From Argopecten irradians (Eukaryota > Mollusca > Bivalvia > Pectinida > Pectinidae), in NCBI RefSeq assembly GCF_041381155.1, contig NC_091134.1:40197338-40261337 (forward strand): a DNA stretch of 64,000 bases, in the 5' to 3' direction. The position numbers and the translations under genes were made by a program. Positions within the stretch are counted from its first letter, which is position 1; every line of letters starts with the position of its first letter. Of the stretch, positions 18 to 58,766 are shown piece after piece. Below the pieces are notes generated by a model. That model made no database searches, was not told the DNA's origin, and saw only the letters and a program-made list of their open reading frames with translations.

Positions 18-1375
18 ATGGAGTGTGAACAGGAAAAAAAGGATAGGAAAATTATCATCCGCAGGAGGAGGCGGATACTTTGGTTGAGGTTGCTAGGACT
101 TTTTTCTCAAATGACATATGGTTTATGGTCTAGGTTATTTCCCAATGATGATGATATCAACTTTTCTAAGAATGAGCTTCAGTTCTTTAATGACAAAGCT
201 AACCAATATAACACTTTGACGAAGGGAAATCGTTCGAAAAATGATCATGAATGTCTTGACCATTATTTTCAAGCACATTTTTGCATCTTACATGGAGATG
301 TGGAAGCGGGAGAAAAGCATGTGCAGTACGGACGCAGAGCTGCAAACCTATCGAATAAACCTGATTTATTCTTTCTGCTATTTGCTTTAACAGAAGCACG
401 AATACTTTTCATGAAAGATAATATTAACGAACTTCAAAATTTGTTAGAGGAATGTTTCCAGATGATAGATAGATTAGGAAGGTCATTTCCAACTTTTATC
501 CTCGGCTGGTTTTTCTACAATAAAGCGAGGATACAAACTGATGCTAAAGACGCTATTTTGTATTATAAGTGCGCGATTGACAAGTTTAATAAAAGTGGAA
601 CATTAGACAAGATATTTGGAATGGGTCATGCACTTTGCCAACTAAATATTACTATTCTTCGTTGCGGCGACAGAGCTCATACCATACACAGGACTGATCT
701 ACCGGTACCTTCTGATATGGAAGAAGCTGAAGAAAACTTCAGGAGTTTAAAAAAAATGGCGATTCTCGGACACTGTATAGTCATCAGAATTCAATTTTTG
801 ATAGCAAAGTCTGACCACAGATTTCGCACTGGTGAACTGGAGGATGCATTGAGATCAGCTGAGGAGGCTCATGACCTGGCGTTGAAATATAATTGTATGG
901 AATATAAAGAAATGGCAGAGAAACGAATAGAAGTCTACGACCCTGGACATAGAGGTAATCACTATAACGACATGTCATATATACTTCGCATTGTAATAAA
1001 TGTAATTCAAGTGTCTATTCAAATGATCATGTATGTTTTGAATTCCATGACATGAAGATGCATTCGTATTTATTCGCCTGACATCCTTCTAACCTTTCGA
1101 TATTACTGTTATACCGTATATCCGAGAGAATTATATTTTTACGATTTCGCAGGACATTGCTATGATTGCGAAAATTTGAAAATCGTCAACATTTACAATA
1201 ATTTTTTAGATTTATCGCGTAAATACCAGCTATACGTTATGAAATATAACAAAATACAATAAGTTCAGTATTTTACATTACAGGAAACATGCACCTGAGA
1301 AATCAGCAAAAGATTGTCATCAAACATGCTGAAAAGGTACACACTGGTGATGTTTACCAAAATCAAACATGCTGA
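18..1375 (+). CDS. TPR-like helical protein, paralogue 1, with vestigial RHIM-like tail
   Basis: Two exons are inferred: 18-954 and 1284-1375, joined in phase 1 (donor AG|GTAATC, acceptor ttttacattacag). The product is 342 aa. Residues 7-24 form a very basic stretch (KKDRK, RRRRR) followed by hydrophobic residues. The rest is helical with TPR-like spacing, including the family signatures LGWFFYNKA, GHALCQLNI and IAKSDHRFRTGELEDAL. Exon 2 starts MHLRNQQ, like paralogue 3, gives one degenerate repeat (HAEKVHTGDVYQNQ) and stops at 1373. The frame is open to the window edge, so the true start may lie upstream; ATG 18 is only the first visible one. If the intron is retained the frame closes at 1055. 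The intron is clearly homologous to that of paralogue 3, so the two genes share a recent duplication. The molecular function is not recognised; a scaffold or adaptor role is inferred from the TPR-like fold only. Confidence 0.65.
955..1283 (+). other. intron of paralogue 1
   Basis: This 329-bp phase-1 intron matches intron 12504-12851 of paralogue 3 along most of its length. Shared blocks include ttatatttttacgatttcgc and the acceptor ttttacattacag. The shared intron supports the two-exon model for both genes. Confidence 0.6.
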
Positions 1376-1480
1376 AAATGTACACACTGGTACACGTGAC
1401 GTTAATAACCAAATCACACAGCAACATTTTTCCGATCCAGGCGGATTATCAGTTATTTGCCTATACACAGTGAGAGGATA
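1324..1480 (+). pseudogene. decayed RHIM-like repeat exon of paralogue 1
   Basis: Two copies of the 45-bp repeat seen in paralogue 3 are present but in different frames. The first (from 1325) reads HAEKVHTGDVYQ. About two bases are missing relative to the consensus after it, which causes the stop at 1373. The second (from 1364, another frame) reads KHAENVHTGTRDVNNQIT and carries a six-base insertion after HTG. In both copies the core is VHTG, so both the Gln and the third hydrophobic position of an RHIM core are lost. The sequence after it (ggatattttcggaga near 1475) matches the flank of paralogue 3. Confidence 0.6.
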
Positions 1481-6168: not shown

Positions 6169-7302
6169 ATGACGACAATATCTCTTTTGAAGTCGGACAC
6201 GAGTGAAACCGACAATACGGTTGGAGATTTAAGAAAAGTCTTCATCGAACAATCTAAACGAGGATATGAAAATCGCTGTCGAATAGTCTTGAAATGGCTG
6301 TGTTATCAAAGCGGACTTCGAATGCTCACGTTTGACCGGTCTCTATATTCTTTGTCCGAACGAGAGAAATTTTTCTTCAACCAGGCAGCTAATTTGTACA
6401 ATCTAGCTCAGAGCGATAAACTGTCAGCACTGTGCTGCATTCTGGAATGTAAAGAAGACATCAGCTTAGTATGTTTAGCCCTGTATTTCCAGGCCAATCA
6501 AGCTATCTTGAGACGTGACTTAGAACAGGCAAAGGACTGTATAGCCAAGGGATTGCATAGGGCGAAGGAGTCCAACAAGTATGAACTGCTTACCATGATG
6601 TTAGCCTCACCATTGGCTAGAGTGTACAGGATGGAAGGTCAGAGGGAAGAGCTTCAGAACTTTCTTAGTGAATGTTTCATGATGTTGGAACTGAAAGGAA
6701 AGGTGGTTTCGGGTCGTTTCCTAGGATGGTTGTTCTACAGCCAGGCACAAGAACGACTCATGCGTGGTAACGCGTTGGATCTATCTAATCCAACCTCCAT
6801 GTCCGAGTATATAAAATATTCCAATAAGGCAGTAGCATGTCTGGAATATGCCCTTGACGTTTTCAATGAGGATGAAACCGAAGATAAACATTTCGGACAG
6901 GCCTACTGTCTTTGCCGACTCGTCATTTGCCTGCTGGGGTGCGGTGAAGATGGATCTACTATAGACCTTGTTGATACACCGTACCCGGGTGAATTCCGAT
7001 CTGCTCGTAAATACCTGAACCAGTTAGACAAGTCTCCAACACGGCATTGCACAGTGATAAAAATTATGCACGAGATGGCTAAATCGGACTATCTTTATAG
7101 GACTAGGAATTTTCAGGGAGCATCAGAATCTGCAGTGAAAGCTGCTGAATTATCCGAATGGTATGGGTGTAGTGAGTTCACAGAGATTACCAGAAAACGG
7201 AGAGAGTTATACATGATGAAATCGGAAAAAATAACATTAAATTACTTTTATGTTGTGTATCATAAAATAAAAATAAACAAAAGGGACCAATGTCTCAAAT
7301 AA
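6169..7302 (+). CDS. TPR-like helical protein, paralogue 2 (no RHIM-like tail)
   Basis: One 377-aa coding exon. ATG 6169 is the first start after an in-frame TGA upstream, within an exon whose acceptor ends at 6127. It shares the family layout: a basic/hydrophobic N-terminal region (CRIVLKWLCYQ, residues ~37-47), then ANLYNLAQ, LGWLFYSQA, AYCLCRLVICLLGCGED, and AKSDYLYRTRNFQGA, which fits a TPR helix pair. It carries extra residues between the LGW and LCRL blocks compared with its siblings. The conserved phase-1 donor used by paralogues 1 and 3 is absent, and the frame continues into a lysine-rich tail (HKIKINKR) before the stop. No RHIM-like repeat follows in the next 1 kb. An AATAAA-like signal lies just after the stop. 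Function unrecognised; adaptor or regulator is an inference. Confidence 0.75.
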   Translation: MTTISLLKSDTSETDNTVGDLRKVFIEQSKRGYENRCRIVLKWLCYQSGLRMLTFDRSLYSLSEREKFFFNQAANLYNLAQSDKLSALCCILECKEDISLVCLALYFQANQAILRRDLEQAKDCIAKGLHRAKESNKYELLTMMLASPLARVYRMEGQREELQNFLSECFMMLELKGKVVSGRFLGWLFYSQAQERLMRGNALDLSNPTSMSEYIKYSNKAVACLEYALDVFNEDETEDKHFGQAYCLCRLVICLLGCGEDGSTIDLVDTPYPGEFRSARKYLNQLDKSPTRHCTVIKIMHEMAKSDYLYRTRNFQGASESAVKAAELSEWYGCSEFTEITRKRRELYMMKSEKITLNYFYVVYHKIKINKRDQCLK

Positions 7303-11560: not shown

Positions 11561-13291
11561 ATGCCATTATTACGATCAAGAGGGAGTGTCGTCACACGGT
11601 CTAGGCGGAGAATGCGGACGCATTCAGATACCAGACAACAGATAACATTGTTTTGTTCTTGGCTGAAATGCTGCTTTTTGATAATGCCCAACCTAGACGA
11701 TATTACTTTTTGCGAAAGGCAGATTAATTACTTCAACCGTAAGGCTAACCAGTACAATACGTTGACAAATAGATATGTTCCTATCCACGAAGACGACATG
11801 TGCATTGAATTTTACTTTGATGCTAACTGCAAAATGTTGGAAGGTCAAATCGATTTGTGCGAAAAAAGTGTACAAGAAGGATTAAGAGTTGCAAGATTGT
11901 CGAGAAAGCCTGATTTATTCAGACTATTATTAGCTATACCTCAAGCGCGAGTACTCTATGCGAGAGGGCAAATCGAGGACCTTCGAGATTTTCTTGTAGA
12001 GTGTTTTCAGAGGATAGATTCTTTAGGAAGAATGATGCAAGGAAGTGTAGTCGGGTGGCTCTTATACATGCGCGCAAGGTCACAAAATGATAAGGACGAC
12101 GCCATTAACGATTATATACACGCTATAGATGCATTCAACAAATGCGAAACAGTAGACAAAGAGTTTGGGATAGGCCATACGTTATGCAGATTAAACATTG
12201 CTATACTTGGTTGTGGCGAAGAGGTCGATAGAGTCGATCAGGTTGAAATTCCGTTTCCCTCCCAACTTACCAAAGCAAAGAACAATTTCAAACATTTACA
12301 AGGAATATGCAATCTTGAGCAATGCGTTGTCATCAAAATATTATATTTGATGGCAAAATCGGACTATTACTATCGCACAAGAAACCCAGCCGCTGCACTT
12401 CGAGGAGCCATAGAAGCACACAATCTCGCGGTAGATTCCGGATGCCAAGAGTTTGTTGAAATTACAAAGAAGCGGAAAGAAGTCTACACCGCCAAATGCA
12501 CGGGTAATTACTATAATGTCATTATAACTGCACTGCAATACATGTATATGTAACCAAAGTGTTTTGACCACTGATCATGCATGTTTTGAACTCCATGGCA
12601 TGAAGCTATACAGGTATTCGCATTTATATTTCCATGACATCCTTTTAACTTTTCGATATTTATATATTACTGTTATACCATATAACTGGTTATCCGAGTG
12701 AATTATATTTTTACGATTTCGCATGACATTGCTATGATTACGAAAATTTGAAAATCTTCAAAATTTAGTATAAGCGTTTTTAGATTTATAGCGGAGATAA
12801 CACCTATACGGTATAACATGTAAACAAATACAACAATATTTTACATTACAGGGAACATGCACCTGAGAAATCAGCACAACATGGTCGTCAATAATACTGG
12901 AAATGCTCACATCAGTGAAATCACAAATGCTGAAAATGTACAAATTGGTGACGTAAATAACAAAATCACAAATGCTGAAAATGTACAAATTGGTGACGTA
13001 AATAACAAAATCACAAATGCTGAAAATGTACAAATTGGTGACGGAAGTAGCCAAATCACGCATGCTGAAAATGTACACATTGGTGACGGAAGTAGCCAAA
13101 TCACGCATGCTGAAAATGTACACATTGGTGACGGAAGTAGCCAAATCACGCATGCTGAAAATGTACACATTGGTGACGGAAGTAGCCAAATCACGCATGC
13201 TGAAAATGTACACATTGGTGACGGAAGTAGCCAAATCACGCATGCTGAAAATGTACAAATTGGTGACGGAAATAACCAAATCACACATTAA
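11561..13291 (+). CDS. TPR-like protein with eight tandem RHIM-like repeats, paralogue 3
   Basis: Two exons, 11561-12503 and 12852-13291, are joined in phase 1 (G|GTAATTA donor, cattacag acceptor) and give 460 aa. ATG 11561 is the first after an in-frame TAA at 11498. Residues ~1-45 are Arg-rich then hydrophobic (LFCSWLKCCFLIM). Residues ~50-315 are a TPR-like helical array with the family blocks KANQYNTLT, VVGWLLYMRA, GHTLCRLNIAILGCGEE and AKSDYYYRTRNPAAAL. Residues 338-457 are eight contiguous 15-residue repeats, pattern IT(N/H)AENV(Q/H)IGD then VNN, GSS or GNN. The cores VQIGDVNNKI and VQIGDGNNQI satisfy the RHIM pattern (I/V)Q(I/V/L)Gxx N; repeats 4-7 have His for Gln and Ser for Asn. RHIMs in RIPK1, RIPK3, TRIF and ZBP1 assemble signalling amyloids. 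An amyloid or beta-solenoid signalling tail on a helical scaffold is inferred, not shown. Confidence 0.75.
12504..12851 (+). other. intron of paralogue 3
   Basis: A 348-bp phase-1 intron with GT-AG ends, homologous to intron 955-1283. If it is unspliced, the frame closes at 12553 and the repeat tail is lost. Confidence 0.65.
12920..13279 (+). repeat. 45-bp coding minisatellite (8 copies) encoding the RHIM-like motif
   Basis: Eight contiguous 45-bp units. Units 4-7 are identical at DNA level, and units 1-2 are identical over the visible unit. The period is a multiple of three, so the frame is kept. The uninterrupted frames on the opposite strand are a by-product of this repetition. Confidence 0.95.
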
Positions 13292-13472
13292 GATTTTCCC
13301 GATGACGGCCAGTCGGTTTAAGTTCTGATGTTGCACAGAGTTATTAGCTCATGCCATGTTAGAGGATATTTTCGGAGACTCAGATATTCCTTCTTGATTT
13401 CGTTTCTTCAGTATGATAGTTTTTAAACATACCTATTAATATATATTTAGGATGTTAAATGTGTGGTTATTT

Positions 13473-13554
13473 CATATGAGATTTTATGAAACGAGGCTAG
13501 GAAGGTTTTGCTTATGCGAGCCTTTACGAGACGAGTTTCATATAATCTCATATG
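13473..13554. repeat. foldback just 3' of the RHIM-like gene
   Basis: Arms 13473-13492 (catatgagattttatgaaac) and 13535-13554 are inverted copies differing at one position, with a ~42-nt spacer. It could form a stem in RNA or mark a small palindromic element. Confidence 0.7.
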
Positions 13555-13969: not shown

Positions 13970-14270
13970 ATGTATGTGCACGCATACTCTACTCGTGCTG
14001 TGCTGCCCAACAAATGTGAACTGAACATAAAACATGAACGTGTATATACAAATGTGATCACTGACTATAAACGTGTACCTCTCAGTCGCATGATTCCAAA
14101 GTTCTATCAAACCATGACGGAAACGTTGGAAGAGGAAATTTATGTGTGTGCAGAATATGTACAAGAAAGTTCTATGTAAGAGGACAAAACAAAGACTTAT
14201 GAGATTTTCTAGTTGAATGTTTTTACAGGATAGTTTGGAGAGAACGACGCCCAGAGTTTAAACACCCAAC
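13970..14270 (+). pseudogene. broken fourth copy of the TPR-like gene
   Basis: Reading 13970-14179 gives CELNIKHE, KFYQTMTETLEEEIYV and CAEYVQES, aligning with CERQINYF, EFYFDANCKMLEGQID and CEKSVQEG of paralogue 3. After an internal deletion the DNA match resumes at about 14,170-14,240 (tctatgtaagaggacaaaac, then gagattttct and acaggatag), in another frame and with stops. The rest of the gene is missing or too diverged here. Confidence 0.6.
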
Positions 14271-16100
14271 AATTGTAATAATATGCCACATATAGCGACC
14301 AAAAGATCTGACAATATCAAAAGAGTTACCATTAAACGCATTTTACGCCTTATAAAATGTATTTTAGCTTCAATATCTTATATAATTTATTCTTGTTAAT
14401 CAAAAAGTTTTATTTGGTTACCATTCATATAGATAAATTAATAGTGTATAGATATTATAGTTATATTTTTTCTATTATGCAATTTGATGATCTGTCTCGC
14501 TTATTTCAGTTTCATTTTTTCAAAGTTTTGATCTTGGCCAATTTGCAGACAAGCAATTTAAATGTATAGAAGCCCTGGAACCATGCTATTATTGATATAG
14601 GCGTTATTGTCTATGTTAAACCAGGAACTCGAACTGTTCTTTCTCTTAACTGACACACACGAAAGATATATTACTTTCATACTACAATATCAATTAATTT
14701 TTGGCAACAATTTATGTTATTTTTTTAATTTGACAATAACGTTAGAACAACGTTTTCAACAAAGTTTTTTCCATGTAGATAGTTTGCATATAATGTAGTC
14801 CTAATATAATCTCCTACCGTCAATGTCTTTCATCAGCAGCACTGAAGAACTTCAATTTATGCATGATCCACAGTGAACAACATGCTGACTGTTTTAATGT
14901 ACAGGCTTGTCAGCATTTGTCACTGTGTGGCGTAATATTCTGACGAAAGGGACAATATTTTGTTATGTTTTTTTTCCTTTATTGTTCTCTATTTGAAAAA
15001 GGACTTACTGTACTGTTATCAGTGTTAATTGGTATGGTCATTTTTTGAGTCTCCAGTTACAGTGCATGTGTTGATTTAATATGGAGTCCTAATTATTATG
15101 ATGTCATGACCAGCATTCCATTATTTTGTATGTCATTATTGGATTACTTTTTTGTTATTTTTATATAGAACATGGTTTAGTCTTTAGGTCATGTTGGATT
15201 GACTTTTCATGTTATATGTATTTTCTTATACGCTATATAGAATATATGCGTCGTCCCACGGTGTAATTCTAAAGGATGATATTTTGCAGTGTCCTTTTTT
15301 ATTTATTGTTTTTTTTTTTTAACAGAGAAAATGTATCATGACCAATCCATTGATGTGTACGTCTTGTTATATGGCTATGTTTTTTTTGTCAGATTTGTCT
15401 TTGATATGTTGGAATTATGTTAAAATAAATTTTTTAATAAATCACATTGGTTTGACACCAGCTTCGTTGATTTAATACTGATCCACAGGGTTCAAAACTA
15501 AAACAAACAAACTTCAGCTATATCAACGTGTGTCAAGATCGAAAAAAAAATGTACATGGGTAAAAAGACTTGAAAAATACGCCAATCGAAAGGAGATTAA
15601 GATGAAACGGCAAGAGATCAGCGAAACTATCTCATTAAGAAATTCGGACCGACGGACAATAATCAGTAAAAATGAGCATTTTATCATTGACAGCCATTTG
15701 TCCGAATATATGTCATAATGCTAGTATGTCCTAAAAAAGGCTCTTTACATGCAAAACATTCGTATTTTCGGTCAAAGTTGAACAAAAGTCGGAGTATCAT
15801 AACCAACTAGTGTTTTTCAGAGTGATGATATCAATGTCCGTTTGTGTACACCTAAATAGGACTTTATTCAGACAGTAGAAGGCATGTTTGATTGGTGTCC
15901 AAATTGAAGCGTTTAGTAAATTTATATGACCTATATTTTTTGTGATTTTGCCATATTTAAGGTTAACCTTTACCGTTTTTTTCAGAACTGCGGTGGAAGC
16001 TTTTCTATCCTGTTGTCTGGTAATACAAATTTGTGTACTTTAGGGCTATTTGTTAGATTTATATACATATGATACACTGATTTGCAGCGAATGTTCAAAT
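14270..16100. other. gene-free stretch
   Basis: AT-rich. A 79-codon open stretch 15482-15718 follows an acceptor-like tactgatccacag, is Lys/Arg-rich, and matches nothing I recognise. An aataaa signal lies near 15,425. No supported gene. Confidence 0.4.
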
Positions 16101-21000: not shown

Positions 21001-24000
21001 TGGTGAATAACAAAGTACTTTGATTTGTAAGTGCATTTCATAAAAAAAGTTCACAAAAAAAATCTTTATATATAATTGAATCAAAATTATCCATGTACAT
21101 GTATTTAATTAATTGTTGAGATATCTAAGAGAATTGGATATATATAACAAGTTCATTAGTGCATTAATATGCTAACGTTTATACGCTTTATTTCAATATA
21201 CAAAAAGTACTGTATATTTAACTGACAATTATGGCGCACGGTCAGTTCGGTTCATTCTGAAACATAATCTACCGATACAATGTACATTGCATTTTATTAA
21301 GGATTAATTTGTGTAATGAGTTCATGTAGCATCCAGCACTGGTATCCTATCATCAGTCAGATACAGGCCGTTGGTCGGAGATATTCACCTGGTACTCCCG
21401 CTTTGAGCCTGTTTGCAAAGAATGTAACGTGACGCGAGAAAAAATGGCTACCTCTGCACCACCCCTCACCCCCAACTCCCTAAAATATATCTAAAAATAG
21501 AATAAACCGATAATTGTTAGCCAAATTAACATCAATGCGTTAGCCAAAACTGTATCAGCAGTAATGCACTCGATGACCTACCATGGCCTAATGAACTCGC
21601 TGACCTTTTCTTCTTATAATGTACTTGTTGACCTTTTCTTCTTATAAAGTACAGTCCTTGACCTTTTCGGCTGTATTTGTGCAATAACGTATTGTGTTAG
21701 GCCTGTAGTTTTATCTTTCTACAATATGTCTAATGAAAATTAATTAGTTTGCACAGACAAAATACTCATTTCCTGATCATTAAGAAAAAGATACTTCCCT
21801 CAAAGTGATTAAGCATTATCGACACAATACCTCATAAAGATATATTTTGAACCTGAAACATTGTAAATCGTTCAAAGATAAGCATTTTCTCAAGTATACA
21901 TGTATAACTTAACCTATCTTCAAGACATCCCTCTTTTTAAGGCATTCAGAGAAAGGAATAAGAACAATTGTGTAATTTAAAGAAAAAGATTACTAACGGT
22001 TCAGAATCCACATATGCATTGTCTTTTAAAGACGTGTGTTTGTCATGTGCATGGACTGTAATCCTACCTAATAACTTGGTAGGACGAAATAAAAATAAAA
22101 AAATCAAAGCAGCCACTCTTATATATAAAATACGATTTTACAAGCAATTGACAGATAATTTTACAACATTTATGTGCTTCTCTCAGGGTTGGGGGTGTGG
22201 ATACAGGACGCTACAGACAATGTGCGCCTGGGTATTAAACCAGCGGTCGGGGGCCGGCGAAGGGAAATCTGTACCATCGCTGAAGGCCATACAGGAAGCT
22301 CTTGTTGCCATGGGAGACAAACCAGACTCTTTTGTGGGCTCCAGAGAATGGATAGGTAGCTTCGAAGTCTCCATATGTATGGATTATTTTGTGGAGGTAA
22401 ATTGGCGCTTTAAAATTGTTTTTAAAAACTCATTAAGCGGAAGTCAATGTACCTTCATACCTGCTACATCTACAAAGAACATCTCTGTTTGTATATTGAC
22501 TTAGGTATAAAGGATACTTGTCTTTAAAGGACAAGTCTTTTTAGTGTCCTTTATAGACGGGTAGGACTGTAATTATTAAATTAATATATATTTTGTTTTT
22601 GCTGAACATGATGAAATGTACACGTTCATGAAATCGAGAACACTTTTACATTTTTGAAAATGATATAACTTTAAGACGGTGGCCGAAACGGTCAGCGTCC
22701 ACACCTTTTTGACTAGTAACAGAGCTGTAACTTGGCAACTATAATTGACGATTCGATGAAGGACAAATTCCACACCATACTTTCAACATTCTTTGGGTAC
22801 TTCCATGCTTTTCCGTTTTTCAGGTGCCATGTAAAATAATACATGTCACATCCGGTGCGTTGCTATGTGACCACATGGAGACGCTGAAGAAACACTTTGA
22901 TGTGATTGGAGCACCAGTGATGATGGGTATGGTCACTTGGATTTATTTTTACAATGATTTAAGAAAGTGGGGCATCTAGTATTATTTATAGCCTGAGCCT
23001 GCATCTGTTGTGGCGAATGGACCAATATCACAAAACTATCAAGTATAGTTAGAATTATGGGATAATATGTGGTTATTACATAAAAAATGAAAATTACCTG
23101 TTAATTTAAGAGTTACAATAAATATGATCAAAAATTACGTCATTCCTCATCTAGGAGTTACCTCCCTTTTCATAAACCTCACTATAATTATTTGTTTGTA
23201 CCACCAATATCGGGAGAACACTAAGATAGGCTATGCCTGATGTCTAATCCAATTGACACTAACATATTTTTGTCAATAAAATATTTGGAAATTGAAATAG
23301 TATTATTTCTTTGAAAACAATGCAATTCGAATTTGTATCATTAATTACGGGATACTATTCCTTTTTACATATCCCTCAACACCAATGATAGCCTTGAGTT
23401 TCATTAGAATGTCCTTGTGAGGAAGGCTCTGAGTTCCATCTCGAAGCCTACCACATTCTGTAAAAACTCATTCACACATGACTGCATGTTATACAAAATG
23501 CAAAATTTCAGAAGGCAAACATCTTTGTAGCAAATTGGGTTTAGCATCACAAAAGATGTGTATAGGTGTATCTGGGGCGTCTTTTGAACAATTTAGAACC
23601 TCTTTTAAGTTACATATTTCTTTCGGATTGGTAGGACCAATATAAATGTCAATATAAATATAAATGATAAATCATTGTGAAATTGGACGGTTTATGTATA
23701 TAGATTGTTTTACCATGTGATCTTTTCATTATAACTTGGTTTATGATGTATACTATCCTTTATGTATACCATTAGGTGGAGATAGCGACAATGCGTCCAA
23801 GGGAATCCTAGGGGTCTGTAACGACCCAGCATCTCTTCTTATACTGGTGAGTAGCTAGGCAGAAATAGAAAATAATCTATATAATAGCCAGAATAACTAT
23901 TACAGGATTACACGTAGGTAGTTATGGAAATACAATGCAGTGGAATAGCAATGGTTCACCAGCTACATACTAAGATAAAATACTCTCAGCTGTTTCTATA

Positions 24001-26563: not shown

Positions 26564-27999
26564 TTAGAATATATATGGCACTATTCTGTACGGAACCGCC
26601 CGGCAGTATTCCTCCCAGTACTGTCCGTACTTCCGTCTACACTTCCGCTCATCCCGAAAACTGCGATGGACAAGAAGTACAATGAGGAACAGGAAATACC
26701 AGTATGGCGTCACATTCGAGGTCATCGATGGTAATGTCCAAAAGAAGGCCAGCAGTAACTCCGCTAAGTAGTTGAAATGTCGAGCAACTCCCCACCATCC
26801 CGACACCAGAAGTAGAGTTTCCTTTTCTTCACCAGTGTGCATTGTATATCTGGCCTTGATAACCTTGGGTTTAGATCCCCAGATAAGACACTTTCCTTTC
26901 GTTTCCCTTGTTTGCAGTTTCTGAAGGTCGGCCCAGTAATTGACGGCTATACTAGCCAAACCACAACCCAATATAAGGAAAGCTATGATTGGTTCAAGGT
27001 GGACTGGGTATTTCACCAAGTACATGCTCACTGATGCATAAAATGATGGCACTAAACACAAACAACCCCAGCATATGTAAAATCCCGCACGATCCAATAT
27101 GATGTCGAGGGTATGCATGTAGCCACCTTCCCACCAAAAGAACTTAGTAATGTACACGAGTTGGAGCACTGATGATATGAATATGTTGTACACGAATCCA
27201 TGCATCTCATAGCTCTTTAGGTTGTAGAGGACAACCAGGATGGGCCAAACGGTCAATGCATATCTACAATTGGTGAACACTTTGATGTCGACGCCACAGA
27301 CCCGTGGGTAGAGTTCAGTGCCCCAGTAGTAGTCAAAGATAGGGTTGCCCGAGACACTATTGTCACTAGTGGACGGCCAATAGACACCTTTAATGCAGAG
27401 AAGAAGGCAAAACAAGAGGCTGAAGATGTTCAAGAAGAAAATCACTTCGTCAAACCGATCACGGTCGGTGTGAGTCCACGAAACTTCAATACTGCCGTCA
27501 GAACAACGAATGTCGCCATGGTGACAATGTAACACAGGAATCCATTGTTTTTATACACAGGGATATTTCCCTTCGGTGTCTCCGGGCCTTCAAGTCGTTT
27601 TCCTGGTAGCAGAACCATCAGCACAAGTGCGAATGCCATGTAGCCAAGCACCACACACGGTACTAAACCATCCTTTAGTCGACTTGCCCACCACATTTCC
27701 ATGGTTCCTGTCAGAAAGGACTTTCCCTCGAAGTCTTGGAACATAGCCACTATACTCCCGTCATACTTCTGTGTGGCATACCAAAACCACATTCCGAAGT
27801 TTGGCGTTATGGTTATCACCAACAGAGGCATGATGATTTGGTTGATTAATTTGTACAAAAAAGAATCGGCCGGTAACTGTGATTTGTTGTCGATATTTAG
27901 ACGTCCATTTTCAGACGTTCTGTGGGTCGTCCCATTTTGAGTCGTTGAGGTTGTGGTTTTATCCAATGGACCCTTCCTTGAACGCGTTTCTCTGTCCAT
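26564..27999 (-). CDS. DHCR7: 7-dehydrocholesterol reductase with a one-base frameshift
   Basis: This NADPH-dependent ER-membrane enzyme reduces the C7-C8 double bond of 7-dehydrocholesterol to give cholesterol. Two overlapping minus-strand frames cover it: codons 27999-27481 (173) and 27481-26567 (305), about 478 residues, close to the ~475 usual for DHCR7. Family marks include CLIWGSKPKVI, LLVSGWWGVARHFNY (ERG4/ERG24 signature region), DERKCRRKYGQYWEEY and the end VPYRIVPYIF. Many hydrophobic helices are present. The shift is near 27,481. Without a missing base the first frame ends at 27442 after AVLKFRGL. The joined protein aligns with the vertebrate enzyme without a gap there, so a one-base deletion (assembly error or null allele) is the simplest reading. 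ATG 27999 lies 10 bp inside an exon with a good acceptor (tctttatttcag), implying a 5' non-coding exon further upstream. Confidence 0.88.
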
Positions 28000-28008
28000 T
28001 TTCTTCAA

Positions 28009-28020
28009 CTGAAATAAAGA
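28009..28020 (-). other. splice acceptor before DHCR7 start
   Basis: On the minus strand tctttatttcag precedes TTGAAGAAA-ATG. The polypyrimidine-rich acceptor so close to the start suggests a leader exon upstream that is not identified here. Confidence 0.5.
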
Positions 28021-28107
28021 AGTAACAAACAGAGTTTACTTATTTAGATTTCTGAGTGTTATTTTGTCTTAATATAACGAATTGTTTTCTATATGTTAAG
28101 GAAATGT

Positions 28108-30569: not shown

Positions 30570-33500
30570 ATACTTGTGGTTTCACAGGCCTAAACACACT
30601 TACCTCCAAACCAAAATAGTGAAGTTCAATTTATCTACTTGTGGTTTGACAGACCTAAACACACTTACCTCCAAACCAAAGTAGTGATGTTCAATGTATC
30701 TACTTGTAGTTTCACAGGCCTATACGCACTTACCTCCAAACCAAAATAGTGAAGTTCAATTTATCTACTTGTAGTTTCCCAGGCCAATTACCTCCAAACC
30801 AAAATAGTGAAGTTCAATTTATCTACTTGTAGTTTCCAGGCCATACACACTTACCTCCAAACCAAAATAGTGAAGTTAAATTTATCTTCTTGTGGTTTCA
30901 CAGGCCTATACATACTTACCTCACACCAAAACAGTGAAGTTCAATTTATCTACTTGTGGTTTCACAGGCCTATACTCACTTACCTCCAAACCAAAATAGT
31001 GAAGTTTAATTTATCTACTTGAGGTTTCACAGGCCTATACATACTTACCTCCAAAATTTACTACTATGTGGTTTACAACCTATCCTTACCTCCAAACCAA
31101 AATAGTGAAGTTCAATTTATCTACTTGTGGTTTGCCTATACATACTTACCTCCAAAATTTTCTACTTGTGGTTTACCTATACACACTTACCTCCAAACCA
31201 AAATAGTGAAGTTCAATTTATCTACTTGTGGTTTCACAGGCCTATACACACTTACCTCCAAACCAAAATAGTGAAGTTTAATTTATCTACTTGTGGTTTC
31301 ACAGGCCTATACTCACTTACCTCACACCAAAATAGTGAAGTTAATTTATACTTTTGGTTTCACAGGCCTATACACACTTACCTCCAAACCAAAATAGTGA
31401 AGTTCAATTTATCTACTTGTGGTTTCACAGGCCTATACATACTTACCTCACACCAAAACAGTGAAGTTCAATTTATCTACTTGTGGTTTCACAGGCCTAT
31501 ACACACTTACCTCCAAACCAAAATAGTGAAGTTCAATTTATCTACTTGTGGTTTCACAGGCCTATACACACTTACCTCCAAACCAAAATAGTGAAGTTTA
31601 ATTTATCTACTTTTGGTTTCACAGGCCTATACACACGTACCTCCAAACCAAAATAGTGAAGTTCAATTTATCTACTTGTGGTTTCCCAGGCCTATACATA
31701 CTTACCTCCAAACCAAAATAGTGAAGTTCAATTTATCTACTTGTGGTTTCACAGGCCTATACTCACTTACCTCCAAACCAAAATAGTGAAGTTCAATTTA
31801 TCTACTTGTGGTTTCACAGGCCTATACACACTTACCTCACACCAAAACAGTGAAGTTCAATTTATCTACTTGTGGTTTCACAGGCCTATACACACTTACC
31901 TCCAAACCAAAATAGTGAAGTTTAATTTATCTACTTGTGGTTTCACAGGCCTATACATACTTACCTCCAAACCAAAATAGTGAAGTTTAATTTATCTACT
32001 TTTGGTTTCACAGGCCTATACACACTTACCTCCAAACCAAAATAGTGAAGTTCAATTTATCTACTTGTGGTTTCACAGGCCTATACACACTTACCTCCAA
32101 ACCAAAATAGTGAAGTTCAATTTATCTACTTGTGGTTTCACAGGCCTATACACACTTACCTCCAAACCAAAATAGTGAAGTTCAATTTATCTACTTGTGG
32201 TTTCACAGGCCTATACACACTTACCTCCAAACCAAAATAGTGAAGTTCAATTTATCTACTTGTGGTTTCACAGGCCTATACATACTTACCTCCAAACCAA
32301 AATAGTGAAGTTCAATTTATCTACTTGTGGTTTCACAGGCCTATACACACTTACCTCCAAACCAAAATAGTGAAGTTCAATTTATCTACTTGTGGTTTCA
32401 CAGGCCTATACACACTTACCTCCAAACCAAAATAGTGAAGTTCAATTTATCTACTTGTGGTTTCACAGGCCTATACACACTTACCTCACACCAAAACAGT
32501 GAAGTTCAATTTATCTACTTGTGGTTTCACAGGCCTATACACACTTACCTCCAAACCAAAATAGTGAAGTTCAATTTATCTACTTGTGGTTTCACAGGCC
32601 TATACACACTTACCTCCAAACCAAAATAGTGAAGTTTAATTTATCTACTTGTGGTTTCACAGGCCTATACACACTTACCTCACACCAAAACAGTGAAGTT
32701 CAATTTATCTACTTGTGGTTTCACAGGCCTATACACACTTACCTCCAAACCAAAATAGTGAAGTTCAATTTATCTACTTGTGGTTTCACAGGCCTATACA
32801 CACTTACCTCCAAACCAAAATAGTGAAGTTCAATTTATCTACTTGTGGTTTCACAGGCCTATACACACTTACCTCAACACCAAAATAGTGAAGTTCAATT
32901 TATCTACTTGTGGTTTCACAGGCCTATACACACTTACCTCACACCAAAACAGTGAAGTTCAATTTATCTACTTGTAGTTTCACAGGCCTATACACACTTA
33001 CCTCCAAACCAAAATAGTGAAGTTCAATTTATCTACTTGTGGTTTCACAGGCCTATACACACTTACCTCCAAACCAAAATAGTGAAGTTCAATTTATCTA
33101 CTTGTGGTTTCACAGGCCTATACACACTTACCTCCAAACCAAAATAGTGAAGTTCAATTTATCTCTACTTGTGGTTTCACAGGCCTATACACACTTACCT
33201 CCAAACCAAAATAGTGAAGTTCAATTTATTACTTGTGGTTTTCACAGGCCTATACACATACTTACCTCACACCAAAATAGTGAAGTTCAATTTATCTACT
33301 TGTGGTTTCACAGGCCTATACACACTTACCTCCAAACCAAAATAGTGAAGTTTAATTTATCTACTTGTGGTTTCACAGGCCTATACATACTTACCTCCAA
33401 ACCAAAATAGTGAAGTTCAATTTATCTACTTGTGGTTTCACAGGCCTATACACACTTACCTCAAACCAAAATAGTGAAGTTTAATTTATCTACTTGTGGT

Positions 33501-34413
33501 TTCACAGGCCTATACACACTTACCTCACACCAAAATAGTGAAGTTCAATTTATCTACTTGTGGTTTCACAGGCCTATACACACTTACCTCCAAACCAAAA
33601 TAGTGAAGTTCAATTTATCTACTTGTGGTTTCACAGGCCTATACACACTTACCTCCAAACCAAAATAGTGAAGTTTCAATTTATCTACTTGTGGTTTCAC
33701 AGGCCTATACACACTTACCTCCAAACCAAAATAGTGAAGTTCAATTTATCTACTTGTGGTTTCACAGGCCTATACACACTTACCTCCAAACCAAAATAGT
33801 GAAGTTCAATTTATCTACTTGTGGTTTCACAGGCCTATACTCACTTACCTCCAAACCAAAATAGTGAAGTTTAATTTATCTACTTGTGGTTTCACAGGCC
33901 TATACTCACTTACCTCCAAACCAAAATAGTGAAGTTCAATTTATCTACTTGTGGTTTCACAGGCCTATACTCACTTACCTCACACCAAAACAGTGAAGTT
34001 CAATTTATCTACTTGTGGTTTCACAGGCCTATACTCACTTACCTCACACCAAAACAGTGAAGTTTAATTTATCTACTTGTGGTTTCACAGGCCTATACAC
34101 ACTTACCTCCAAACCAAAATAGTGAAGTTTAATTTATCTACTTGTGGTTTCACAGGCCTATACTCACTTACCTCCACACCAAAACAGTGAAGTTCAATTT
34201 ATCTACTTGTGGTTTCACAGGCCTATACTCACTTACCTCCAAACCAAAATAGTGAATTTCAATGTATCAACTTGAGGTTTCACAGGCCTCATATACACAC
34301 TTACTCCAAACCAAAATAGTGAAGTTCAATTTATCTACTTGTGGTTTCACAGGCCTATACACACTTACCTCCAAACCAAAATAGTGAAGTTCAATTTATC
34401 TACTTGTGGTTTC
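30570..34413. repeat. 65-bp satellite array
   Basis: About 58-59 head-to-tail copies of a 65-bp unit (acttgtggtttcacaggcc, tatacacacttacctcc, aaaccaaaatagtgaagttc, aatttatct). Copies in the first ~700 bp and the last ~150 bp are more diverged, and the centre is nearly identical, as expected for unequal exchange. A 64-bp variant (cacaccaaaacag) recurs at intervals. Because 65 is not a multiple of three, open frames repeat every 195 bp and are not genes. Confidence 0.97.
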
Positions 34414-42718: not shown

Positions 42719-45700
42719 TTGATTACAAACCCTTACTCACCGTAACAACTATACTGCTCCACAATGTGTCTTTGATTATTACAACCCTTACTCACCGTAA
42801 CAACTATACTGCTCCAATGTGTCTTTGATTACAACCCTTTACTCTACAACCCTTACTCGCCGTACTCACCGTAACAACTATACTCGCTCCATTGTGTCTT
42901 TGATTACAACCCTTACTCGCCGTAACAACTATACTGCTCCATTACGTCTTTGATTATACAACCCTTACTCGCCGTAACAACTATACTGCTCCAATGTGTC
43001 TTTGATTACAACCCTTACTCACCGTAACAACTATACTGCTCCATTACGTCTTTGATTATACAACCCTTACTCGCCGTAACAACTATACTGCTCCAATGTG
43101 TCTTTGATTATACAACCCTTACTCGCCGAACAACTAACAACTATACTGCTCCAATGTGTCTTTGATTACAACCCTTACTCACCGTAACAACTATACTGCT
43201 CCAATGTGTCTTTGATTACAACCCTTACTCGCCGTAACAACTATACTGCTCCATTACGTCTTTGATTATACAACCCTTACTCGCCGTAACAACTATACTG
43301 CTCCAATGTGTCTTTGATTACAACCCTTACTCACCGTAACAACTATACTGCTCCATTACGTCTTTGATTATACAACCCTTACTCACCGTAACAACTATAC
43401 TGCTCCATTACGTCTTTGATTATACAACCCTTACTCGCCGTAACAACTATACCTCTCGAATGTGTCTTTGATTACAACCCTTACTCGCCGTAACAACTAT
43501 ACTGCTCCAATGTGTCTTTGATTACAACCCTTACTCACCGTAACAACTATACTGCTCCATTACGTCTTTGATTATACAACCCTTACTCGCCGTAACAACT
43601 ATACCTCTCTAACGTGTCTTTGATTACAACCCTTACTCACCGTAACAACTATACTGCTCCATTACGTCTTTGATTATACAACCCTTACTCACCGTAACAA
43701 CTATACTGCTCCAATGTGTCTTTGATTATACAACCCTTACTCACCGTAACAACTATACTGCTCCAATGTGTCTTTGATTATACAACCCTTACTCGCCGTA
43801 ACAACTATACTGCTCCATTACGTCTTTGATTATACAACCCTTACTCGCCGTAACAACTATACTGCTCCATTACGTCTTTGATTATACAACCCTTACTCAC
43901 CGTAACAACTATACTGCTCCATTACGTCTTTGATTATACAACCCTTACTCACCGTAACAACTATACTGCTCCATTACGTCTTTGATTATACAACCCTTAC
44001 TCACCGTAACAACTATACTGCTCCATTACGTCTTTGATTATACAACCCTTACTCACCGTAACAACTATACTGCTCCATTACGTCTTTGATTATACAACCC
44101 TTACTCGCCGTAACAACTATACTGCTCCATTACGTCTTTGATTATACAACCCTTACTCGCCGTAACAACTATACTGCTCCATTACGTCTTTGATTATACA
44201 ACCCTTACTCACCGTAACAACTATACTGCTCCATTACGTCTTTGATTATACAACCCTTACTCACCGTAACAACTATACTGCTCCATTACGTCTTTGATTA
44301 TACAACCCTTACTCGCCGTAACAACTATACTGCTCCATTACGTCTTTGATTATACAACCCTTACTCGCCGTAACAACTATACTGCTCCATTACGTCTTTG
44401 ATTATACAACCCTTACTCACCGTAACAACTATACTGCTCCATGTGTCTTTGATTACAACCCTTACTCACCGTAACAAATACTGTGTGTCTTTGATTACAA
44501 CCCTTACTCACCGTAACAACTATACTGCTCCAATGTGTCTTTGATACAACCCTTACTCACCGTAACACTATACTGCTCCAATGTGTCTTTGATACAACCC
44601 TTACTCACCGTAACAACTATACTGCTCAATGTGTCTTTGATTACAACCCTTACTCACCGTAACAACTATACTGCTCCTTTGTCTTTGATTATACAACCCT
44701 TACTCACCGTAACAACTATACTGCTCCATTACGTCTTTGATTATACAACCCTTACTCACCGTAACAACTATACTGCTCCATTACGTCTTTGATTATACAA
44801 CCCTTACTCGCCGTAACAACTATACTGCTCCATTACGTCTTTGATTATACAACCCTTACTCACCGTAACAACTATACTGCTCCATTACGTCTTTGATTAT
44901 ACAACCCTTACTCGCCGTAACAACTATACTGCTCCATTACGTCTTTGATTATACAACCCTTACTCGCCGTAACAACTATACTGCTCCAATGTGTCTTTGA
45001 TTACAACCCTTACTCACCGTAACAACTATACTGCTCCATTACGTCTTTGATTATACAACCCTTACTCACCGTAACAACTATACTGCTCCATTACGTCTTT
45101 GATTATACAACCCTTACTCGCCGTAACAACTATACTGCTCCAATGTGTCTTTGATTACAACCCTTACTCACCGTAACAACTATACTGCTCTAATGTGTCT
45201 TTGATTACAACCCTTACTCGCCGTAACAACTATACTGCTCCAATGTGTCTTTGATTACAACCCTTACTCACCGTAACAACTATACTGCTCCATTACGTCT
45301 TTGATTATACAACCCTTACTCACCGTAACAACTATACTGCTCCATTACGTCTTTGATTATACAACCCTTACTCGCCGTAACAACTATACTGCTCCAATGT
45401 GTCTTTGATTACAACCCTTACTCACCGTAACAACTATACTGCTCCATTGTGTCTTTGATTACAACCCTTACTCGCCGTAACAACTATACTGCTCCAATGT
45501 GTCTTTGATTACAACCCTTACTCACCGTAACAACTATACTGCTCCATTACGTCTTTGATTATACAACCCTTACTCACCGTAACAACTATACTGCTCCATT
45601 ACGTCTTTGATTATACAACCCTTACTCGCCGTAACAACTATACTGCTCCATTACGTCTTTGATTATACAACCCTTACTCACCGTAACAACTATACTGCTC

Positions 45701-48700
45701 CAATGTGTCTTTGATTACAACCCTTACTCACCGTAACAACTATACTGCTCCAATGTGTCTTTGATTACAACCCTTACTCACCGTAACAACTATACTGCTC
45801 CAATGTGTCTTTGATTTACAACCCTTACTCACCGTAACAACTATACTGCTCCATTACGTCTTTGATTATACAACCCTTACTCACCGTAACAACTATACTG
45901 CTCCATTACGTCTTTGATTATACAACCCTTACTCGCCGTAACAACTATACTGCTCCATTACGTCTTTGATTATACAACCCTTACTCGCCGTAACAACTAT
46001 ACTGCTCCAATGTGTCTTTGATTATAAACCCTTACTCACCGTAACAACTATACTGCTCCATTACGTCTTTGATTATACAACCCTTACTCACCGTAACAAC
46101 TATACTGCTCCATTACGTCTTTGATTATACAACCCTTACTCGCCGTAACAACTATACTGCTCCAATGTGTCTTTGATTACAACCCTTACTCACCGTAACA
46201 ACTATACTGCTCCATTACGTCTTTGATTATACAACCCTTACTCGCCGTAACAACTATACTGCTCCATTACGTCTTTGATTATACAACCCTTACTCGCCGT
46301 AACAACTATACTGCTCCAATGTGTCTTTGATTACAACCCTTACTCACCGTAACAACTATACTGCTCCATTACGTCTTTGATTATACAACCCTTACTCGCC
46401 GTAACAACTATACCTCTCCAATGTGTCTTTGATTACAACCCTTACTCACCGTAACAACTATACTGCTCCATTACGTCTTTGATTATACAACCCTTACTCA
46501 CCGTAACAACTATACTGCTCCATTACGTCTTTGATTATACAACCCTTACTCGCCGTAACAACTATACTGCTCCATTACGTCTTTGATTATACAACCCTTA
46601 CTCACCGTAACAACTATACTGCTCCATTACGTCTTTGATTATACAACCCTTACTCGCCGTAACAACTATACTGCTCCATTACGTCTTTGATTATACAACC
46701 CTTACTCGCCGTAACAACTATACTGCTCCATTACGTCTTTGATTATACAACCCTTACTCGCCGTAACAACTATACTGCTCCAATGTGTCTTTGATTACAA
46801 CCCTTACTCACCGTAACAACTATACTGCTCCATTACGTCTTTGATTATACAACCCTTACTCGCCGTAACAACTATACTGCTCCATTACGTCTTTGATTAT
46901 ACAACCCTTACTCGCCGTAACAACTATACTGCTCCAATGTGTCTTTGATTACAAACCTTACTCACCGTAACAACTATACTGCTCCATTACGTCTTTGATT
47001 ATACAACCCTTACTCACCGTAACAACTATACTGCTCCAATGTGTCTTTGATATACAACCCTTACTCACCGTAACAACTATACTGCTCCAATGTGTCTTTG
47101 ATTATACAACCCTTACTCGCCGTAACAACTATACTGCTCCATTACGTCTTTGATTATACAACCCTTACTCGCCGTAACAACTATACTGCTCCAATGTGTC
47201 TTTGATTACAACCCTTACTCACCGTAACAACTATACTGCTCCAATGTGTCTTTGATTACAACCCTTACTCACCGTAACAACTATACTGCTCCAATGTGTC
47301 TTTGATTACAACCCTTACTCACCGTAACAACTATACTGCTCCAATGTGTCTTTGATTACAACCCTACTCACCGTAACAACTATACTGCTCCAATGTGTAC
47401 AACCCTTACTCACCGTAACAACTATACTGCTCCAATGTCGTCTTTGATTATACAACCCTTACTCGCCGTAACAACTATACTGCTCCAATGTGTCTTTGAT
47501 TACAACCCTTACTCACCGTAACAACTATACTGCTCCATTACGTCTTTGATTATACAACCCTTACTCGCCGTAACAACTATACTGCTCCATTACGTCTTTG
47601 ATTATACAACCCTTACTCGCCGTAACAACTATACTGCTCCATTACGTCTTTGATTATACAACCCTTACTCGCCGTAACAACTATACTGCTCCAATGTGTC
47701 TTTGATTACAACCCTTACTCACCGTAACAACTATACTGCTCCATTACGTCTTTGATTATACAACCCTTACTCACCGTAACAACTATACTGCTCCAATGTG
47801 TCTTTGATTACAACCCTTACTCACCGTAACAACTATACTGCTCCAATGTGTCTTTGATTTACAACCCTTACTCACCGTAACAACTATACTGCTCCAATGT
47901 GTCTTTGATTACAACCCTTACTCGCCGTAACAACTATACTGCTCCATTACGTCTTTGATTATACAACCCTTACTCGCCGTAACAACTATACTGCTCCAAT
48001 GTGTCTTTGATTACAACCCTTACTCACCGTAACAACTATATACTGCTCCAATGTGTCTTTGATTACAACCCTTACTCACCGTAACAACTATACTGCTCCA
48101 ATGTGTCTTTGATTACAACCCTTACTCACCGTAACAACTATACTGCTCCAATGTGTCTTTGATTACAACCCTTACTCACCGTAACAACTATACTGCTCCA
48201 ATGTGTCTTTGATTACAACCCTTACTCACCGTAACAACTATACTGCTCCAATGTGTCTTTGATTACAACCCTTACTCACCGTAACAACTATACTGCTCCA
48301 ATGTGTCTTTGATTACAACCCTTACTCACCGTAACAACTATACTGCTCCAATGTGTCTTTGATTACAACCCTTACTCACCGTAACAACTATACTGCTCCA
48401 ATGTGTCCTTTGATATACAACCCTTACTCACCGTAACAACTATACTGCTCCAATGTGTCTTTGATTTACAACCCTTACTCACCGTAACAACTATACTGCT
48501 CCAATGTGTCTTTGATTACAACCCTTACTCACCGTAACAACTATACTGCTCCAATTGTGTCTTTGTCTTACTTGACTTATGTGTCTTTGATATACAACCC
48601 TTACTCACCGTAACAACTATACTGCTCCAATGTGTCTTTGATTACAACCCTTACTCACCGTAACAACTATACTGCTCCAATGTGTCTTTGATTACAACCC

Positions 48701-51700
48701 TTACTCACCGTAACAACTATACTGCTCCAATGTGTCTTTGATTACAACCCTTACTCACCGTAACAACTATACTGCTCCAATGTGTCTTTGATTTACAACC
48801 CCTTACTCACCGTAACAACTATATACTGCTCCAATGTGTCTTTGATTTACAACCCTTACTCACCGTAAAACTATACTGCTCCAATGTGTCTTTGATTACA
48901 ACCCTTACTCACCGTAACAACTATACTGCTCCAATGTGTCTTTGATTTACAACCCTTACTCACCGTAACAACTATACTGCTCCAATGTGTCTTTGATTAC
49001 AACCCTTACTCACCGTAACAACTATACTGCTCCAATGTGTCTTTGATTATACAACCCTTACTCACCGTAACAACTATACTGCTCCAATGTGTCTTTGATT
49101 ATACAACCCTTACTCACCGTAACAACTATACTGCTCCAATGTGTCTTTGATTATACAACCCTTACTCACCGTACACAACTATACTGCTCCAATGTGTCTT
49201 TGATTACAACCCTTACTCACCGTAACAACTATACTGCTCCAATGTGTCTTTGATTATACAACCCTTACTCACCGTAACAACTATACTGCTCCAATGTGTC
49301 TTTGATTATACAACCCTTACTCACCGTAACAACTATACTGCTCCAATGTGTCTTTGATTTACAACCCTTACTCACCGTAACAACTATACTGCTCCAATGT
49401 GTCTTTGATTACAACCCTTACTCACCGTAACAACTATACTGCTCCAATGTGTCTTTGATTTACAACCCTTACTCACCGTAACAACTATACTGCTCAATGT
49501 GTCTTTGATTATACAACCCTTACTCACCGTAACAACTATACTGCTCCAATGTGTCTTTGATTACAACCCTTACTCACCGTAACAACTATACTGCTCCAAT
49601 GTGTCTTTGATTTACAACCCTTACTCACCGTAACAACTATACTGCTCCAATGTGTCTTTGATTACAACCCTTACTCACCGTAACAACTATACTGCTCCAA
49701 TGTGTCTTTGATTACAACCCTTACTCACCGTAACAACTATACTGCTCCAATGTGTCTTTGATTATACAACCCCTTACTCACCGTAAACAACTATACTGCT
49801 CCAATGTGTCTTTGATATTACAACCCTTACTCACCGTAACAACTATACTGCTCCATGTGTCTTTGATTACAACCCTTACTCACCGTAACAACTATACTGC
49901 TCCAATGTGTCTTTGATTACAACCCTTACTCACCGTAACAACTATACTGCTCCAATGTGTCTTTGATTTACAACCCTTACTCACCGTAACAACTATACTG
50001 CTCCAATGTGTCTTTGATTACAACCCTTACTCACCGTAACAACTATACTGCTCCAATGTGTCTTTGATTACAACCCTTACTCACCGTAACAACTATACTG
50101 CTCCAATGTGTCTTTGATTACAACCCTTACTCACCGTAACAACTATACTGCTCCATTGTGTCTTTGATTACAACCCTTACTCACCGTAACAACTATACTG
50201 CTCCAATGTGTCTTTGATTACAACCCTTACTCACCGTAACAACTATACTGCTCCATTGTGTCTTTGATTACAACCCTTACTCACCGTAACAACTATACTG
50301 CTCCAATGTGTCTTTGACGTTACAACCCTTACTCACCGTAACAACCTATACTGCTCCAATGTGTCTTTGATTACAACCCTTACTCACCGTAACAACTATA
50401 CTGCTCCAATGTGTCTTTGATTACAACCCTTATTCACCGTAACAACTATACTGCTCCATTACGTCTTTGATTATACAACCCTTACTCACCGTAACAACTA
50501 TACTGCTCCATTACGTCTTTGATTATACAACCCTTACTCGCCGTAACAACTATACTGCTCCATTACGTCTTTGATTATACAACCCTTACTCGCCGTAACA
50601 ACTATACTGCTCCAATGTGTCTTTGATTACAACCCTTACTCACCGTAACAACTATACTGCTCCATTACGTCTTTGATTATACAACCCTTACTCACCGTAA
50701 CAACTATACTGCTCCAATGTGTCTTTGATTACAACCCTTACTCACCGTAACAACTATACTGCTCTCTAATGTGTCTTTGATTATACAACCCTTACTCACC
50801 GTAACAACTATACTGCTCCAATGTGTCTTTGATTACAACCCTTACTCACCGTAACAACTATACTGCTCCAATGTGTCTTTGATTTACAACCCTTACTCAC
50901 CGTAACAACTATACTGCTCCAATGTGTCTTTGATTACAACCCTTACTCACCGTAAACAACTATACCTCTCGAATGTGTCTTTGATTACAACCCTTACTCA
51001 CCGTAACAACTATACTGCTCCAATGTGTCTTTGATTACAACCCTTACTCACCGTAACAACATATACTGCTCGAATGTGTCTTTGATTACAACCCTTACTC
51101 ACCGTAACAACTATACTGCTCCAATGTGTCTTTGATTACAACCCTTACCTCACCGTAACAACTATACTGCTCCAATGTGTCTTTGATTACAACCCTTACT
51201 CACCGTAACAACTATACTGCTCCAATCGTCTTTGATTACAACCCTTACTCACCGTAACAACTATACTGCTCCAATGTGTCTTTGATTACAACCCTTACTC
51301 ACCGTAACAACTATACTGCTCCAATGTGTCTTTGATTACAACCCTTACTCACCGTAACAACTATACTGCTCCAATGTGTCTTTGATTACAACCCTTACTC
51401 ACCGTAACAACTATACTGCTCCAATGTGTCTTTGATTTACAACCCTTTACTCACCGTAACAACTATACTGCTCCATTACGTCTTTGATTATACAACCCTT
51501 ACTCGCCGTAACAACTATACCTCTCTAATGTGTCTTTGATTACAACCCTTACTCGCCGTAACAACTATACCTCTCTAATGTGTCTTTGATTACAACCCTT
51601 ACTCACCGTAACAACTATACTGCTCCAATGTGTCTTTGATTATACAACCCTTACTCACCGTAACAACTATACTGCTCCATTACGTCTTTGATTACAACCC

Positions 51701-54700: not shown

Positions 54701-55460
54701 GTCTTTGATTACAACCCTTACTCATGTAACAACTATACTGCTCCAATGTGTCTTTGATTACAACCCTTACTCGCCGTAACAACTATACCTCTCTAATGTG
54801 TCTTTGATTACAACCCTTACTCGCCGTAACAACTATACTGCTCCATTACGTCTTTGATTATACAACCCTTACTCGCCGTAACAACTATACTGCTCCATTA
54901 CGTCTTTGATTATACAACCCTTACTCGCCGTAACAACTATACTGCTCCAATGTGTCTTTGATTACAACCCTTACTCACCGTAACAACTATACCTCTCTAA
55001 CGTGTCTTTGATTACAACCCTTACTCATGTAACAACTATACTGCTCCATTACGTCTTTGATTATACAACCCTTACTCGCCGTAACAACTATACTGCTCCA
55101 ATGTGTCTTTGATTACAACCCTTACTCGCCGTAACAACTATACTGCTCCAATGTGTCTTTGATTACAACCCTTACTCACCGTAACAACTATACTGCTCCA
55201 TTACGTCTTTGATTATACAACCCTTACTCGCCGTAACAACTATACTGCTCCATTACGTCTTTGATTATACAACCCTTACTCGCCGTAACAACTATACTGC
55301 TCCAATGTGTCTTTGATTACAACCCTTACTCACCGTAACAACTATACTGCTCCAGTCTTTGATTACAATCTTTACTCATGTAACAACTATACAAGCTCCA
55401 ATGTGTCTTTGATTACAAATGTTACGTTCATAATCATTACTCATTGTAACATCAAGCGCA
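42719..55460. repeat. 50/52-bp satellite array, about 12.7 kb
   Basis: Roughly 250 head-to-tail units of the form tactgctcca..gtctttgatt..acaacccttactcaccgtaa caacta. Main classes are a 52-bp form (attacgtctttgattataca), a 50-bp form (aatgtgtctttgattacaac) and a variant with tatacctctctaatgtg. Each class may carry CACCG or CGCCG. Composition changes along the array: mixed to about 48 kb, almost pure 50-bp CACCG form to about 50.4 kb, then CTCTCT-rich and, near 53-53.7 kb, a diverged block with cttatcgtaac and tttggttac. Flanking units are the most diverged. No genes. Confidence 0.97.
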
Positions 55461-58705: not shown

Positions 58706-58712
58706 GGAAATG

Positions 58713-58766
58713 TTGACGGACGGACGGACGGACGGACGGACGGACGGACGGACGGACGGACGACGG
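58713..58766. repeat. (GGAC)n microsatellite
   Basis: About twelve ggac/gacg units, one interrupted, at the 3' side of the nested element. Confidence 0.95.

Follow-up and report, generated by a model that had tools for sequence, protein, structure and literature searches.

An array of eight 15-residue repeats with partial RHIM resemblance at the end of a predicted TPR-type protein of Argopecten irradians

Whether a long run of RHIM-like amyloid motifs is carried by a TPR-like protein in a bivalve is the question raised by a locus of the bay scallop, Argopecten irradians (NCBI RefSeq assembly GCF_041381155.1, contig NC_091134.1, positions 40,197,338 to 40,261,337 of the forward strand). The window, i.e. 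the whole stretch of 64,000 nucleotides that was analysed and to which all coordinates refer, contains a two-exon gene, here called gene A. For this gene the original prediction, made from the sequence alone, had proposed a TPR-like scaffold ending in eight tandem RHIM-like motifs, which were regarded as a possible multivalent seed for amyloid signalling or alternatively as a beta-solenoid. According to the present analysis, the RHIM resemblance of the tail is real but partial and insufficient for family membership, and gene A is, as judged from its neighbours in the window, a member of a small tandem TPR-superhelix family newly found here in the bay scallop. The parts of gene A are as follows.

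11561..12503, + strand: exon 1 (943 nt), with an N-terminal basic/hydrophobic segment and the TPR-like helical scaffold, residues 1-314
12504..12851, + strand: intron, GT-AG, phase 1, conserved in paralogue B
12852..13291, + strand: exon 2, the tail exon (440 nt)
12920..13279, + strand: eight contiguous tandem 45-bp (15-residue) repeats, residues 338-457

The spliced product (11561-12503 joined to 12852-13291) is in frame and comprises 460 residues, which match to 100% an uncharacterized protein of A. irradians, the NCBI/UniRef record P0003; therefore the public gene model has the same splice, the record being a confirmation of the gene model and not RNA evidence. The predicted in-frame junction 12503/12852 agrees with this model, and paralogue B, described below, possesses the same phase-1 intron with GT-AG sites of its own. 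The exon structure of gene A is real as a gene model.

The eight contiguous repeats were likewise borne out, as Tandem Repeats Finder (TRF) reported a period of 45 with 8.2 copies and 96% matches. Four repeats (1, 2, 3 and 8) contain VQIGD, and all of these but repeat 3 also have the downstream Asn, just as had been read before; repeats 4-7 are identical in their DNA and read VHIGDGSSQ. Core residues are invariant and the frame is kept across all eight copies. Seven codons vary within the array, six of them with a change of amino acid and one silently.

The core of a RHIM is a [IV]-Q-[IVL]-G tetrad with a downstream Asn. In gene A the strict pattern [IV]Q[IVL]G..N fits three of the eight repeats (1, 2 and 8) and the tetrad alone four, the tetrad Gln being replaced by His in four repeats and the Asn missing in five, so that the claim of eight RHIM-like motifs holds for these three repeats and was overstated for the array. 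The fuller pattern [IV]Q[IVL]G..N..[IVLM], chosen after the repeats had been inspected, arose in 0.038% of within-repeat shuffles of repeat 1 and in 0.027% of those of repeat 8 (200,000 shuffles each); it is rare, and therefore composition alone is insufficient to produce it. The profile search proposed with the prediction turned out negative: Pfam RHIM (PF12721) scored 12.7-13.8 bits (E 0.043-0.098) and did not reach the curated cut-off of 20. Each time the score came from repeat 8 only, whose peptide (13.8 bits, E 0.043) was the single one to match among six. The other natural repeats of gene A gave no RHIM match as peptides, nor did any of a second set of eight (three repeats in their natural context, three variants of repeat 8 with altered letters, a chimaera carrying flagellar letters and a mistyped peptide from before the repeats). 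As a control, 19 column-permuted tails were scanned, nine at E up to 10 and ten at E up to 0.1. None of them matched RHIM, as against 13.7 bits for the whole repeat tail; however, because 18 of the 19 matched some Pfam family at E 0.1 or better, a RHIM E-value of about 0.05 is ordinary in a scan of the whole library. The top PDB match to the repeat profile was not a RHIM chain but lay at the C-terminal end of a flagellar basal-body protein, where the sequence is VQIGDVMNKI (E 0.36); such a decamer can thus arise elsewhere, and when placed within a repeat this flagellar peptide gave no RHIM match.

Relatives of gene A within the window allow the tail to be viewed in the context of its family. 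The features concerned are the following.

18..954, + strand: paralogue B, exon 1 (tblastn 135-956), scaffold 47% identical to that of gene A over 277 columns; frame open to the window edge, true start uncertain
955..1283, + strand: paralogue B, intron, phase 1, GT-AG, 80% identical to the gene A intron (259/322 aligned bases)
1284..1375, + strand: paralogue B, tail exon, beginning NMHLRNQ as in gene A, with one in-frame repeat (IKHAEKVHTGDVYQ; IKHAEKVHTGD) and then a stop
1356..1418, + strand: paralogue B, second repeat copy, IKHAENVHTG..., in a different frame
6169..7302, + strand: paralogue C, scaffold open reading frame (ORF) of 377 residues, by tblastn 36% identical to gene A over 6349-7221
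14046..14300, + strand: scaffold relic D, interrupted by stops (tblastn 14161-14232, blastn 14171-14236, translated frames; outer limits set by eye)
12575..13415, + strand: 3' module of gene A, i.e. most of the intron, the tail exon and the start of the 3' flank, where the likeness between A and B exceeds that of the scaffold exon

Both repeat copies of paralogue B read VHTG, Ile being replaced by Thr and Gln by His; the RHIM tetrad is hence absent from the closest relative, conservation being judged here on B as the sole relative with a tail available. For paralogue C no tail-like match was detected nearby or elsewhere in the window. The tail of B is degenerate and C lacks a detected one, so the scaffold represents the stable part of the family, the long tail being peculiar to A among the three.

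These observations bear directly on the proposal of a genuine multivalent RHIM array in the tail, which would seed amyloid with bivalve RHIM proteins and lead to cell death or NF-kB-type signalling. The strict pattern in three repeats, its rarity in shuffles and the lack of RHIM matches among permuted tails argue for this proposal, as does the biological setting: RHIM proteins are annotated in bivalves, and the product of a CARD-RHIM gene of a cockle iridovirus resembles the bivalve ones, according to PMC12452177. RHIM-bearing PGRPs, by contrast, are reported in PMC9835746 as not having been found in molluscs. Still, the score under the cut-off and confined to repeat 8, the exchange of Gln for His, the missing Asn, the VHTG of paralogue B and the flagellar best match speak against it, and no partner with the same motif was recognised among the ORFs of the window and the paralogues, to which this comparison extended. 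On balance we consider a genuine array of this kind unlikely, and RHIM-type amyloid signalling by the tail no more than possible. In the open-licence literature no paper was found that joins RHIM, mollusc and TPR, none on RHIM-like motifs with tandem repeats and amyloid, and none on EAD10 or an effector-associated domain together with RHIM.

Comparison with known systems leads to a similar picture. The RHIM proteins RIPK1, RIPK3, TRIF and ZBP1 (PF12721) share with repeats 1, 2 and 8 of gene A the [IV]QIG followed by xxN and a hydrophobic residue after the Asn, whereas gene A differs in its eight contiguous copies, in the His substitutions and missing Asn noted above, and in its sub-threshold score; no kinase, TIR or Z-nucleic-acid domain was found in its protein by Pfam. 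Fungal HELLP and PNT1 (PP-NB-ARC-TPR) come close in that a RHIM-related motif occurs in a TPR protein, and the union of a RHIM-like PP motif with NB-ARC-TPR in PNT1, as presented in PMC12881547, favours the RHIM array. Compared by description, PNT1 possesses an NB-ARC, and its name implies a motif at the N-terminus, while in gene A no NTPase was found and the array is C-terminal. Bacterial BASS3, also compared by description, belongs to the RHIM-related motif class (PMC7889193, PMC7885112); in filamentous bacteria, BASS motifs are reported to occur on NLRs and on effector proteins. The repeats of curli (CsgA/CsgB) consist of tandem amyloid units longer than the 15 residues of gene A. By their consensus they share with three gene A repeats the Q-x-G-x-x-N spacing and are likewise in tandem; gene A differs by its TPR scaffold, and the curlin family was not among the Pfam matches of its protein or tail.

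If the RHIM array were genuine, gene A would encode an amyloid-signalling protein in which a repeat of changeable copy number determines the valency, and thus a natural test of the motif number needed for signalosome nucleation, set in an animal group for which the annotation of RHIM proteins comes from sequence. Otherwise the locus is a warning that near-perfect repeats easily give rise to short VQIGDxxN matches, to profile scores over the whole protein and to confident AlphaFold2 solenoids. A far-reaching version, which we regard as very improbable, would see a TPR sensor family of bivalve innate immunity that gained a C-terminal array by swap of a 3' exon module, with copy number setting the valency of RHIM-type nucleation; full RHIM motifs would persist towards both ends, in two repeats on one side and a single repeat on the other, and the His/Ser copies in the middle would act as weakened spacers.

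The history of the tail can be approached from the unequal likeness of A and B. At third codon positions of the scaffold exon 122/297 are identical (41%), as opposed to 259/322 (80%) in the intron (Fisher p 3e-24), and fourfold sites point in the same direction (20/45 identical, p 1e-6). Divergence of this exon by the Nei-Gojobori method (NG86) was dN 0.47 and dS 2.65, the latter unreliable as it lies near silent saturation. In steps of 75 bases identity amounts to 47-65% in the exon and, where the copies align, to 76-93% from about 12575 on; in the 3' flank the identity depends on the alignment (70/88 or 68/108), with blastn reaching to 13415. The intron is far more alike than the silent exon sites, and therefore exchange or conversion between the copies reached the end of the gene at a later time than the divergence of the scaffolds. 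Such a contrast in age fits a modular tail as well as plain gene conversion.

We tentatively favour, while holding it short of probable, that the tail of gene A is a recently expanded, beta-forming assembly tail. The 3' module of intron and tail exon, common to A and B, would have been exchanged or homogenised after divergence of the scaffolds, and in gene A the 45-bp coding unit would afterwards have grown to eight copies. The TPR superhelix would most likely bind a peptide or protein partner and the tail most likely fold or assemble as stacked beta-structure, oligomerising the protein, with the repeats giving multivalence. Three points weigh against this interpretation. With six changing codons to one silent, purifying selection on the repeat does not become visible; the scaffold frame of B is open while its tail is degraded and C shows none, so that the family seems able to do without the tail; and the beta model is weak evidence for a near-perfect repeat tail, as AlphaFold2 is reported to overpredict beta-solenoids for perfect repeats (PMC11795689).

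The first two points are also what a coding minisatellite would leave behind, expanded by slippage or unequal crossing-over and tolerated at the C-terminus without specific function. The DNA identity of repeats 4-7, the overall 96% matches and the abundance of other tandem arrays in the window suit such an origin, with which the frame held over eight copies, the invariant core and the splice module retained in two paralogues are less easily reconciled; we judge it improbable. The third point concerns the solenoid raised as an alternative in the original prediction, namely a soluble monomeric beta-solenoid with 15 residues per coil that serves as spacer or binding surface and has no amyloid function. 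AlphaFold2, run on the single sequence, indeed builds a beta-solenoid-like tail with one coil per repeat, but Foldseek with this model gave no match at E up to 0.001 (no RHIM fibril structure stands in the fold-search lists, a fact without weight in either direction), and Hexapep, at E 0.0025 for the whole tail, stayed under its cut-off with no stretch passing alone. Together with the bias for near-perfect repeats this leaves the monomeric solenoid doubtful. The assembly tail thus described remains our preferred interpretation.

For the other half of the protein, the predicted TPR-like scaffold is supported by fold: the structure model and fold comparison yielded a TPR superhelix of antiparallel helix hairpins. 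Support from sequence did not follow, as no Pfam family was found for the scaffold of gene A (P0001) at E up to 10 or for those of B and C at E up to 0.01, and no PDB sequence match supported TPR identity. By model it resembles the peptide-binding TPR superhelices of LGN/GPSM2 and Rap/NprR, from which it differs with 7-12% sequence identity among the matches listed. No such superhelix is known to bear a repeat tail like that of gene A.

Further family matches of the tail were rejected. Mtd_N (PF18454) scored 29.6-31.4 bits for the whole tail and hence above its cut-off of 26.3, but no stretch passes alone (best 9 residues); four of the 19 permuted tails pass some family cut-off (BRCA2 repeat, Dicistro_VP4, FeoA, Dodecin) and one beats the Mtd_N E-value (Dodecin, 5.7e-10), a control that is thin for Mtd_N. 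EAD10 (PF19954) reached 20.1-20.7 bits in three stretches against a cut-off of 24.1, and five of the 19 permuted tails beat its E-value with unrelated families. Both were discounted as summed short matches because permuted tails do likewise. Of three PHROG matches to the tail no stretch passes alone; PADLOC gave no match, Rfam none at gathering score, and NCBIfam only matches far under the cut-off. PDB sequence searches with the tail, two single repeats and the repeat profile returned weak unrelated matches or none.

Protein searches for relatives recovered gene A's own record P0003 alone, one of them having scored the best 7991 candidates by shared words. As the five-residue words shared with A number only 6 for B and 4 for C, relatives at 35-45% identity could escape such searches. 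Scans of viral contigs with tail and scaffold, and of prokaryotic contigs with the tail only, yielded no relatives. Paired QIGD codon blocks 15 residues apart were found in 67 prokaryotic and 4 viral stretches, several being the same protein in related strains (Pectobacterium, Microcystis), and [IV]Q[IVL]G..N was absent from the ORFs in the frames read of all 71. Two of the places recorded, L037 2501-2647 and L033 6871-6972 (Variovorax, an Acidobacteriota metagenome-assembled genome), hold true 15-residue QIGD tandem repeats without the RHIM Asn.

Two minor features lie within gene A itself.

11642..11686, + strand: hydrophobic Cys-rich stretch ITLFCSWLKCCFLIM, residues 28-42 (15 residues), Kyte-Doolittle mean 1.94
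12671..12818, no strand assigned: inverted-repeat pair within the intron, 14 nt each and 93% complementary, like a miniature inverted-repeat transposable element (MITE) by appearance only

The counterparts of residues 28-42 in paralogues B and C have lower Kyte-Doolittle scores, and any role of this stretch would be a guess. The inverted-repeat pair is the single one detected in 12480-13500; it is intronic and not at the borders of the 3' module.

Elsewhere in the window, 26567-28035 on the - strand carries an ERG4/ERG24 (sterol reductase) coding sequence, presumably DHCR7-like, in two overlapping long open frames; the alternatives are a retrocopy with a frameshift, a short intron and an error of assembly. 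An ORF at 21962-22504 on the + strand matches Peptidase C78 (E 4.4e-25) and probably belongs, as an exon, to a UFSP-like gene. Large tandem arrays occupy 30571-34413 (65 bp), 42863-55418 (50-52 bp) and 56506-58708 (157 bp units), the last adjoined at 58715-58769 by a GACG tetranucleotide repeat of 14 copies.
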